Below, piece after piece: positions 44,733-47,852 of a stretch of DNA of 47,859 nt (position 1 is its first letter; the number at the start of each line of letters is the position of its first letter). Origin of the DNA: Fidelibacterota bacterium (lineage in GTDB: Bacteria > Fidelibacterota > UBA8477 > JABMPR01). The stretch covers positions 1 to 47,859 of the forward strand of contig JABMOS010000090.1 of assembly GCA_013203185.1 (NCBI GenBank). Reading direction: 5' to 3'. The notes below the pieces were generated by a model that was not told the origin of the DNA, did no database searches, and was given only the letters and a program-made list of their open reading frames with translations. The position numbers and the translations under genes were made by a program.

Positions 44733-44937
44733 TTTATCTCCTTTTCAATGTCATGTTATGACAGAGCTCAAGATAGAGAATTCGATCTATGAATCAAGGA
44801 AACCATGTATTTACGCGAGGAATTCTTGAATATCTGTTAACACCTTTGTCACCAACAAGACATTCACGCGTAAGGATGGAACCTATACTATTTCATCAAC
44901 AGGGACTCTAGATAATTGGTCCTGAATATATAATAGT

Positions 44938-44942
44938 GGAGG
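44938..44942 (+). promoter_or_regulatory. Shine-Dalgarno GGAGG that fixes the DUF3179 start
   Basis: GGAGG lies five bases before the ATG at 44948. A GTG at 44936 in the same frame has no such site and would sit inside it, so the ATG is preferred. Confidence 0.7.
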
Positions 44943-44947
44943 TATAT

Positions 44948-45988
44948 ATGAGATTCTTTGCTCCTTTGCTCCTGACCGTTTTCATCATTGGGTGTCAAGA
45001 AAGTAGTGTAACTGACGGGGTCTCTGACCTGACATGGACCATTGACACTAAATTTATTCGTCAGGGCTGTTATGATGGTAAAGATTGCATTCCCAGTCTT
45101 GAAGTGCCAAATAAGTCTCACGTAGATGGCTCAAATTTAGGATTTCTAGATGATGAAGATCTGGTGGTGGGAATATGGAATGGTTCAGAACACATCGCAT
45201 ACCCACATGCTATCCTGAACTGGCACGAAATCGTCAATGAATCGGGCTATAGCATATCCTACTGCCCGCTCACTGGAAGCGCCATTCATTTGTCTACATC
45301 AGTAGAATATGGTGTATCAGGATTATTGTTTAACAGCAATCTTATTATGTACGACCGTGAGACAGATAGTTATTGGCCACAGATGCTGCTGCGGTCTGCA
45401 GCGGGAGATCGTTCAGGAGGGGAATTACACTTAAACAATCTTGTGGAAACAACCTGGGGCACCTGGAAATCCCTTTTTCCAGAAACCCAGGTCCTGAATT
45501 CTGATACGGATTATTCCCGAAACTACAGCCGTTATCCGTATGGTAATTATCGTACGTGCAACTCTCTCGCTTGTGGAGATTACATTTATTTTCCTCTGGC
45601 CAATGAAGATGAGCGTTTACCAGCGAAAAATCGTGTCTTGACCATCATTGATGAAGATCAAGTGAAAGCCATAGACATTGATTCATATCCCGATCCTCAA
45701 ATCCTGAGTGTTGACGTAGGGAATTCATTGTATAGAGTTGTGATTTCTGGCCGAGATAATATTGCAGTGGCTTTTGAAACGACTCGGGAACTCACTATAT
45801 CAAAGTGGGATATCTCAGCGGGGGAGATCATTCTAAATCAATCTGATACAGGGAAGGAATGGGATATCACGGGTCAATTGATGGTCAACCCAGTGGCCTC
45901 AGAGCGTCTTGTTGCAGGAAATGCATACATAGCATATTGGTTTTCTGTCGCGGCTTTTTACCCAGATGTTGAGATTGTTTCTGGATGA
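44948..45988 (+). CDS. DUF3179 domain lipoprotein
   Basis: A 346-residue predicted lipoprotein with a short leader and lipobox IIGC (Cys16). It shows the DUF3179 pattern: AYPHAILNWHEIVNE, YCPLTGSAI, VSGLLFNSNLIMYDRETDS with WPQ next, a TTWGTWKSLFPETQVL block and a YPYGNY motif late on. The function of the family is unknown. The conserved Cys in YCPLTGSA and the histidines suggest a metal or redox site, as inference. The next gene overlaps its stop (ATGA), so the two products probably work together. Confidence 0.85.
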   Translation: MRFFAPLLLTVFIIGCQESSVTDGVSDLTWTIDTKFIRQGCYDGKDCIPSLEVPNKSHVDGSNLGFLDDEDLVVGIWNGSEHIAYPHAILNWHEIVNESGYSISYCPLTGSAIHLSTSVEYGVSGLLFNSNLIMYDRETDSYWPQMLLRSAAGDRSGGELHLNNLVETTWGTWKSLFPETQVLNSDTDYSRNYSRYPYGNYRTCNSLACGDYIYFPLANEDERLPAKNRVLTIIDEDQVKAIDIDSYPDPQILSVDVGNSLYRVVISGRDNIAVAFETTRELTISKWDISAGEIILNQSDTGKEWDITGQLMVNPVASERLVAGNAYIAYWFSVAAFYPDVEIVSG

Positions 45989-46923
45989 TCAGAGTCGTGA
46001 TCATAAGCGCCCTACTGACAACATTTTCCTTTGGTCAGGTATGTTGTTCCCCTGTAGGTAGTGGACAGGCTGGAGGTGGTGCGTCAATGAATAATTGGAT
46101 CGCACAGTGGCCAAATACACTAATGGGTGGCAAGAATTGGCATTGGATGTCTAATACCCAGATTACTCACAGAGGACCAGCAGGAAACATCAACTATGGA
46201 CCTCAACTCAATACATTTGTTGAAGTGTCACGCTCCGCTGGCATGAGAAATGTGCTCTTTGTAAACGGTTATGGGGGAGTCGGCTCCCTTTCCGAAAGCG
46301 TCACATACCTTGAGAGCTCAACGATTTCCTATTCAAGTGGTTTTTCAGCAGGGATAAGACGTGCTTTAGGTGATAGAGGTAGGTCCTATGCACAGTTGAT
46401 GCTCAAGCTACCAGGTGAAATACAATATCTCAATGAAGATTTCCCGTTTGATTCCGAAGAAGGAATCTCCTTGAGTGTCCTCGTCCTGCATAGGATTCCC
46501 ATGCCCTGGGCTAAAATAAGCCCGGAATTCTTGAGTGACCTTTCTACAAGTGCCCTATATGAGAAAAACACTGTTGTACGTGATAATATTCTAAGCGATC
46601 ATCGGTCCTTGGTTCATATCTCTTCTGCCATCCATTCGGCTTTTCCATTATTCTTAGCGCCGTTCATTCAGTTGAAGGCAGAACAACTGCTTGCTCCACC
46701 ATCCATATGGACAAATGATCGGGAATCACGCATCCTGGCTTCTACTGTGGCGGGTATAGATCTAGCTATATCAACACCTTACTGGGAAAAGATTAAAGTG
46801 AGGATAGCCTTGCCGCTCATGGCTTGGTCTTCATCAAACGGGTTCCCTGATGGGTCACAACCTGCTCCATATCTTATGCTCGCTGTAAACACTTCAGGGA
46901 TATTCACTGGGAATGACATCTAG
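45985..46923 (+). CDS. Predicted small outer membrane barrel protein with CCSP motif
   Basis: A 312-residue protein with signal peptide (about 1-17) and, just after it, the cysteine pair in QVCCSPVGSGQAGGGAS. The rest is alternating strand-like text with aromatic belts (WHWMSNTQI, SAGIRRAL, FAPFIQLKAEQL-type), consistent with a beta barrel, but I cannot assign a family. Similar short proteins opening with a CC-S/G-rich stretch exist in Bacteroidetes-like genomes without known function, as I recall. It overlaps DUF3179 (ATGA). The CC pair could bind metal or form a disulfide. Confidence 0.7.
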   Translation: MIRVVIISALLTTFSFGQVCCSPVGSGQAGGGASMNNWIAQWPNTLMGGKNWHWMSNTQITHRGPAGNINYGPQLNTFVEVSRSAGMRNVLFVNGYGGVGSLSESVTYLESSTISYSSGFSAGIRRALGDRGRSYAQLMLKLPGEIQYLNEDFPFDSEEGISLSVLVLHRIPMPWAKISPEFLSDLSTSALYEKNTVVRDNILSDHRSLVHISSAIHSAFPLFLAPFIQLKAEQLLAPPSIWTNDRESRILASTVAGIDLAISTPYWEKIKVRIALPLMAWSSSNGFPDGSQPAPYLMLAVNTSGIFTGNDI

Positions 46924-47019: not shown

Positions 47020-47056
47020 GAAACATAAAATTATCATTAAAGGGGCTTGAGCATAT

Positions 47057-47602
47057 ATGGCATATATAGAATATGTTGATCCATACGAAATTCCTGCGGG
47101 GAATCGAGTGAATGATTCTGATCATATCCTACGAATCCACGGAGTACACAGTGAAACCATGCAGTATCATTATTCGCTATACAAAGAGTTAATGTATAGC
47201 AAAGGTCCGCTATCTCGTATTCAAAGAGAGATGATTGCTGTAGCCGTTTCTGCAATCAATGAGTGTCATTACTGAATTGAACATCACGGGGCGGGACTCC
47301 GCAGACTTTTATCAGCCAAAAAAGTGTCTTCTCAGAATCAGGATTCCTTCATAGAAGCACTTGCCCAGGCTGGAGATCATGAAGCTTTTACTCTCCAGGA
47401 TAAAGCAATTCTACAATATGCTGTCAAATTGACTAAAACGCCGGCAGATATGGGGAAACTTGATGTGGAGGTGTTACGATCACGAGGTTTGAATGATCGG
47501 GCTATTCATGATGTTTGTGCAATAACAGCATATTTTGGATTTGTGAATCGAATTGCCGACGGGTTAGGGGTTGAGTTGGAGCCACGGTTTGACGCGGATT
47601 GA
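47057..47602 (+). CDS. AhpD-family peroxidase-related protein with in-frame UGA, predicted selenoprotein (CxxU)
   Basis: A 181-residue carboxymuconolactone-decarboxylase/AhpD fold protein of the peroxidase-related type (PLSRIQREMIAVAVSA). One UGA (47273-47275) interrupts the frame at residue 73, where homologues have the second Cys of CxxC (C-H-Y-UGA). Around it the AhpD spacing E-X11-C-X2-C-X3-H is intact with Glu58, Cys70, residue 73 and His77, and the frame stays open and family-like after the UGA (IEHHGAGLRRLL, then ITAYFGFVNRIADGLG near the end). Read as selenocysteine, the protein is complete. It would act as a thiol/selenol peroxidase or disulfide reductase. It has its own promoter and ends at a terminator shared with tRNA-Arg. 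A point mutation or sequencing error is the alternative. Confidence 0.78.
47287..47302 (+). promoter_or_regulatory. Candidate bacterial SECIS hairpin after the UGA
   Basis: Two overlapping foldings are possible: CGGGG/CTCCG (one G-T pair, loop CGGGA) starting 11 bases after the UGA, or GCGG/CCGC (loop GACT) starting 15 bases after it. Either has a G in the first two loop positions and puts the loop 16-19 bases from the UGA, inside the range described for bacterial SECIS elements. The stems are short. Confidence 0.45.
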
Positions 47603-47640
47603 CACTATTCAAAAAAATATCTCAACCAATTAATTAAAAC

Positions 47641-47672
47641 AAAAAAGACCCCTAAACTTCAGGGGCCTTTTG
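47641..47672. terminator. Bidirectional terminator between the AhpD-family gene and the tRNA-Arg gene
   Basis: CCCCT/AGGGG with a one-base mismatch then AAAAG/CTTTT flank forms the stem, with loop AAACTTC. TTTT follows on the + strand, and a run of at least six T follows on the - strand, so it can end both transcripts. Confidence 0.8.
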
Positions 47673-47746
47673 TACACCAGCCAGGAGTCGAACCCGGAAC
47701 CTTCTGGTCCGTAGCCAAACGCTCTATCCAATTGAGCTACTGGTGC
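47673..47746 (-). tRNA. tRNA-Arg (anticodon ACG)
   Basis: On the - strand GCACCAG pairs with CTGGTGT, with a G1-U72 wobble. The D arm is GCTCAATTGGATAGAGC, the anticodon loop CTACGGA gives ACG (read as ICG after deamination), and the T arm holds TTCGACT. The discriminator is A with no encoded CCA. It lies 33 bases downstream of tRNA-Glu on the same strand, so they are likely co-transcribed. Confidence 0.93.
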
Positions 47747-47779
47747 ATGTCAAAATAAAGATCAAAGTCTTTATCATTG

Positions 47780-47852
47780 TAGCGCGTAGGGGAGTCGAAC
47801 CCCTGTTACCGGCGTGAGAGGCCAGCGTCCTAGACCACTAGACGAACGCGCC
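47780..47852 (-). tRNA. tRNA-Glu (anticodon CUC)
   Basis: On the - strand GGCGCGT pairs with ACGCGCT, again with G1-U72. The anticodon stem CTGGC/GCCGG closes the loop CTCTCAC, giving CTC. The T arm holds TTCGACT; the discriminator is A with no encoded CCA. The gene is complete at the window edge, seven bases from the end; its promoter lies outside. Confidence 0.93.

Follow-up and report, generated by a model that had tools for sequence, protein, structure and literature searches.

The window, a stretch of 47,859 nucleotides, carries at 47057–47602 (+ strand) an AhpD-like gene of the TIGR01926 peroxidase-related type, whose in-frame UGA would be read as selenocysteine (Sec) to give a selenoprotein of 181 residues. 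We assign a probability of about 0.96 to the Sec coding together with the family placement (AhpD/CMD fold, TIGR01926, COG2128 'AhpD-like'), as judged from sequence comparison. The original prediction of a likely selenoprotein is supported by the Sec machinery of the genome, by the same UGA in relatives and by the aligned Cys homologues, and the view that this is a real selenoprotein gene and an additional member of a known marine family is well supported.

The gene and its active site

The frame 47057–47602 comprises 182 codons counting the final stop (MAYIEY...ECHY*IEHHGAG...RFDAD*), and its sole internal stop is the TGA at codon 73 (47273–47275, + strand), which by the alignment of TGA and Cys homologues would specify Sec as the second residue of the C-x-x-U active-site motif (C70-H-Y-U73). 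The partner residue Cys70 is encoded by TGT (47264–47266, + strand) and falls in an invariant column. The residues around the UGA, E58...C70-H-Y-U73-I-E-H-H77, reproduce the E-x11-C-x2-C-x3-H layout of AhpD, and both features noted at the outset, the UGA at the second active-site Cys and the Glu58-x11-Cys70-x2-U73-x3-His77 spacing, are confirmed in the frame. The heptamer AAAGGGG (47039–47045, + strand), about 11 nt before the ATG, is a possible ribosome-binding site as read from the sequence. A scan of the window for pairs of frames separated by a single TGA revealed no other convincing read-through candidate.

The read-through protein matches the NCBIfam model TIGR01926 'peroxidase-related enzyme' with 115.9 bits (cut-off 81.8) over residues 24–175, a region that spans the UGA, and the Pfam CMD family with 49.3 bits (cut-off 23). 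It is modeled by AlphaFold2 with a mean pLDDT of 93.5, and the nearest solved structures are the AhpD-like peroxidase-related proteins 2prr, 2pfx, 2oyo, 6k40 and 3c1l; the debrominase Bmp8 is also found among the structural matches. In the AhpD of Mycobacterium tuberculosis the proton relay consists of Glu118, Cys130, His132, Cys133 and His137, whereas in the Pseudomonas aeruginosa PA0269 a Tyr replaces His132 (PMC3141380). The relay positions are occupied in the window protein by E58, C70, Y72, U73 and H77, and the same positions, with column 73 being either UGA or Cys, are invariant in an alignment of 31 sequences. While the classical M. tuberculosis AhpD (TIGR00777) has the same E-x11-C-x2-C-x3-H relay layout (PMC3141380), the window protein scores below the cut-off of that model (22.7 versus 191.95 bits) and differs in having Sec in place of Cys133 and Tyr72 in place of His132, the Tyr being as in PA0269.

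Conservation of the UGA codon

Among 75 aligned homologous loci (72 distinct, as the contigs of L022–L024, judged by their length, were found twice), codon 73 is TGA in 64 (61 distinct), TGT in six and TGC in five, with no other codon present, and the shared UGA persists in loci down to approximately 38% identity. The Cys-containing homologues have their Cys at the very same codon, and the alignment of an in-frame UGA with Cys of homologues is a mark of bacterial selenoproteins. Within the genus a homologue was found in 10 of the 19 genomes, and each of the ten has TGA at codon 73, so that the expected recurrence of the UGA in related genomes holds for every homologue found there. Extending the search to the family level gained just one genome beyond the genus, and in the phylum as a whole a match (E ≤ 1e-15) is present in 65 of 245 genomes. 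Two of the TGA homologues belong to public MAGs that bear the labels Planctomycetota and Caldithrix. Codons 74–178 are under purifying selection in the genus, with a median pN/pS of 0.35 and a maximum of 0.48, compared to a median of 0.15 for the codons preceding the UGA, all of these figures being rough as the synonymous sites are near saturation. In the tree, the Cys rows are placed uncertainly on long branches and imply two label changes, with one also possible, which fits Cys having arisen from Sec or the reverse.

A SECIS-like hairpin downstream of the UGA

A SECIS-like hairpin, CGGGG-(CGGGA)-CTCCG, with five pairs including one G-U, is predicted at 47287–47301 (+ strand) from comparative evidence, the signal in the window alone being weak. 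The loop begins 16 nt downstream of the UGA, and it contains a G, a feature given for bacterial SECIS elements (PMC1088965). By itself the window hairpin shows no exceptional stability (z = 0.41 when 50 nt after the UGA are folded and z = 0.71 in a second energy test), and for the whole set the energy tests against synonymous shuffles gave a modest signal, with a mean z of −0.85 for the UGA sequences and +0.15 for the Cys sequences; stem pairs were therefore counted directly. Across 38 different UGA sequences with the same motif type the mean stem is 4.97 pairs, compared to 2.14 ± 0.19 after random synonymous replacement of the codons (none of 500 replicates as high), and in 11 Cys relatives it is 1.18 pairs; the two stem registers counted were picked after viewing the sequences, which inflates the effect size, although the contrast between the UGA and Cys forms stands. 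By sequence comparison, the UGA relatives preserve the hairpin to a greater extent than their protein sequence alone would demand, and the Cys relatives do not have it. The arrangement by which bacterial selenoproteins are recognized, a SECIS hairpin just 3′ of the UGA whose small apical loop contains a G, is present with comparative support.

Selenocysteine machinery and its distribution

The window genome is a Neomarinimicrobiota MAG of 82% completeness from an uncultured marine bacterium, and all four components that a functional Sec codon would call for, selA, selB, selD and a tRNA-Sec (UCA), are present in it. The selB (343.6 bits) and selA (510.5 bits) matches lie on one contig, selD is matched with 373.6 bits, and the tRNA-Sec scores 72 bits against a gathering score of 47, with the anticodon assigned as tca by ARAGORN. 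The selD gene (L029:1501–2421, − strand; G000:C88:5466–6386) has an in-frame TGA of its own at the Sec/Cys site (KAAGUAGKI) and counts as this genome's second selenoprotein gene.

In the phylum, selA is found in 177 of 245 genomes. It is present in 48 of the 52 genomes that have the UGA form, versus 6 of the 11 for which the Cys form is the only one detected. In the remaining four UGA genomes selB is missing as well as selA, yet each of them has a tRNA-Sec above the gathering score; a missing contig likely lies behind this absence in the four drafts, since selA and selB are located close together in the window genome. In the Cys-type genomes G022–G025, which belong to one genus, neither selA nor selB nor a tRNA-Sec above the score was detected.

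Gene neighbourhood

The gene is immediately followed, within 47603–47852, by facing tRNA-Arg (acg) and tRNA-Glu (ctc) genes, and a consensus scan suggests a terminator-like hairpin at 47643–47671, between the gene and the facing tRNA-Arg gene, that might be used from both sides. The same tRNA pair lies approximately 0.5 to 1.2 kb from the gene in five other loci (L013–L015, L017 and L018), and in L015 an ORF of 346 residues resembling a serine hydrolase is situated in between. The upstream neighbour (45985–46923) encodes a 312-residue protein without a Pfam match, which is kept beside the gene in L015 (2182–3120) and is itself preceded by a DUF3179 protein (44936–45988).

Discussion

In the most plausible model, SelB together with the Sec-tRNA (UCA) would decode UGA 73 under the guidance of the hairpin that follows it, and Sec would take the place of the second Cys in the CxxC motif. 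The enzyme would then most likely reduce peroxides or pass on thiol-disulfide equivalents via a Cys70-Sec73 selenenylsulfide: the thiolate/selenolate pair would attack the peroxide, the selenenylsulfide would close, and a cellular dithiol would reduce it, with Glu58, Tyr72 and His77 standing where AhpD has residues of its proton relay. We infer the in vivo insertion of Sec, as well as substrate and reductant, from these features; the chemistry is deduced from the family, for which other activities of the CMD fold would be possible.

Two readings in which the UGA does not encode Sec have to be weighed against this model. The UGA could genuinely terminate a decaying gene of the Cys type, having arisen by a chance nonsense mutation, and this might seem to agree with the homologue of one relative, G004 (L013), which has a further in-frame TAG at codon 139, 66 codons after the shared UGA, and with the nine other genus genomes in which the gene was not found. 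Codon 139 is often Gln in close relatives, and the TAG may be either early decay or a sequence error; a downstream disabling change, of the kind that had been named as evidence against a selenoprotein, is found in this one relative, while the Sec reading is still supported. The nine genomes, some of them incomplete, all have selA, and the gene may be dispensable or missing from the drafts, with some of the genomes possibly having lost it. Against decay stand the recurrence of the UGA across distant homologues with only TGA or Cys codons at this position, the purifying selection on the codons that follow and the co-occurrence of the UGA form with the Sec machinery. The TGA/Cys-only codon across relatives and the selection after it exclude a chance stop, a pseudogene and a sequencing error for the family, and decay is very improbable for the window gene. 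Even less credible is a UGA that stands for another amino acid, Trp or Cys, through a changed code or general read-through. Such a reading would account for the open read-through frame, but the open homologues always have Cys and never Trp at the aligned residue, the 48-kb window has one plausible internal UGA and otherwise intact ordinary genes, and the genome possesses a dedicated tRNA-Sec (UCA) along with selA, selB and selD.

With Sec coding taken as the preferred reading, the function of the selenoprotein is a separate question. By analogy with the family a peroxidase role is probable, although considerably less certain than the coding itself. The same selenoprotein could instead act as a thiol oxidoreductase, a dehalogenase or in another reaction of the CMD fold, as this fold is common to enzymes of other activities and includes the structurally matched Bmp8; yet the whole AhpD relay (E58, C70, Y72, Sec73 and H77) is invariant and the closest matches belong to peroxidase-related or AhpD proteins, which makes a non-peroxidase role rather unlikely.

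AhpD-like CxxU selenoproteins were described from the Sargasso Sea in 2005, with 27 sequences assigned to COG2128 (PMC1088965), the GOS survey of 2008 contained 299 members of 'AhpD-like 1', then among the most abundant selenoprotein families (PMC2398784), and 'AhpD-like protein, TIGR01926, CxxU' is among the selenoprotein families given in a 2026 review (PMC13188914). The suggestion that the window gene may be a less described variant is thus not upheld. It shares with the TIGR01926/COG2128 CxxU family the subfamily model, the Sec at the second Cys, the hairpin after the UGA and the occurrence in marine bacteria, without a difference of kind. Another CxxU selenoprotein of the CMD/AhpD fold, the AhpD-related protein NF041238 (CFYUT, 'hypothetical protein 1'), is distinct, as the window protein is not a member (61.8 bits versus a cut-off of 175). 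A word search of the text of two selenoprotein reviews returned no mention of Neomarinimicrobiota, and a text search of the open-licence literature for Marinimicrobia/SAR406 and selenoprotein returned no paper on AhpD-like selenoproteins in the phylum.

A separate branch of AhpD-like UGA genes is also found in the phylum (L073–L092), with [A/S]H rather than HH following the CxxU; it frequently shares a genome with the first branch and has a different hairpin (GACTTC-loop-GAAGTC). There is an even chance that the AhpD-like selenoproteins of the Neomarinimicrobiota form two lineages that parted long ago (CHYU...HH and CxYU...[AS]H), often co-resident in one genome and each with its own hairpin layout, in which case the UGA state would be ancient within the phylum and Cys forms would occur in lineages including one without Sec machinery.

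The gene adds little that is new on how Sec is encoded. Ordinary gene finding would truncate the enzyme to 72 residues or split it at the UGA, an annotation that its recognition corrects. The family, met so far mainly in marine metagenome reads without assignment, is now seen to be spread through the Neomarinimicrobiota, many species of which have Sec machinery, and, if the two lineages are real, they and the Cys forms would make a natural series for Sec/Cys exchange in one enzyme.
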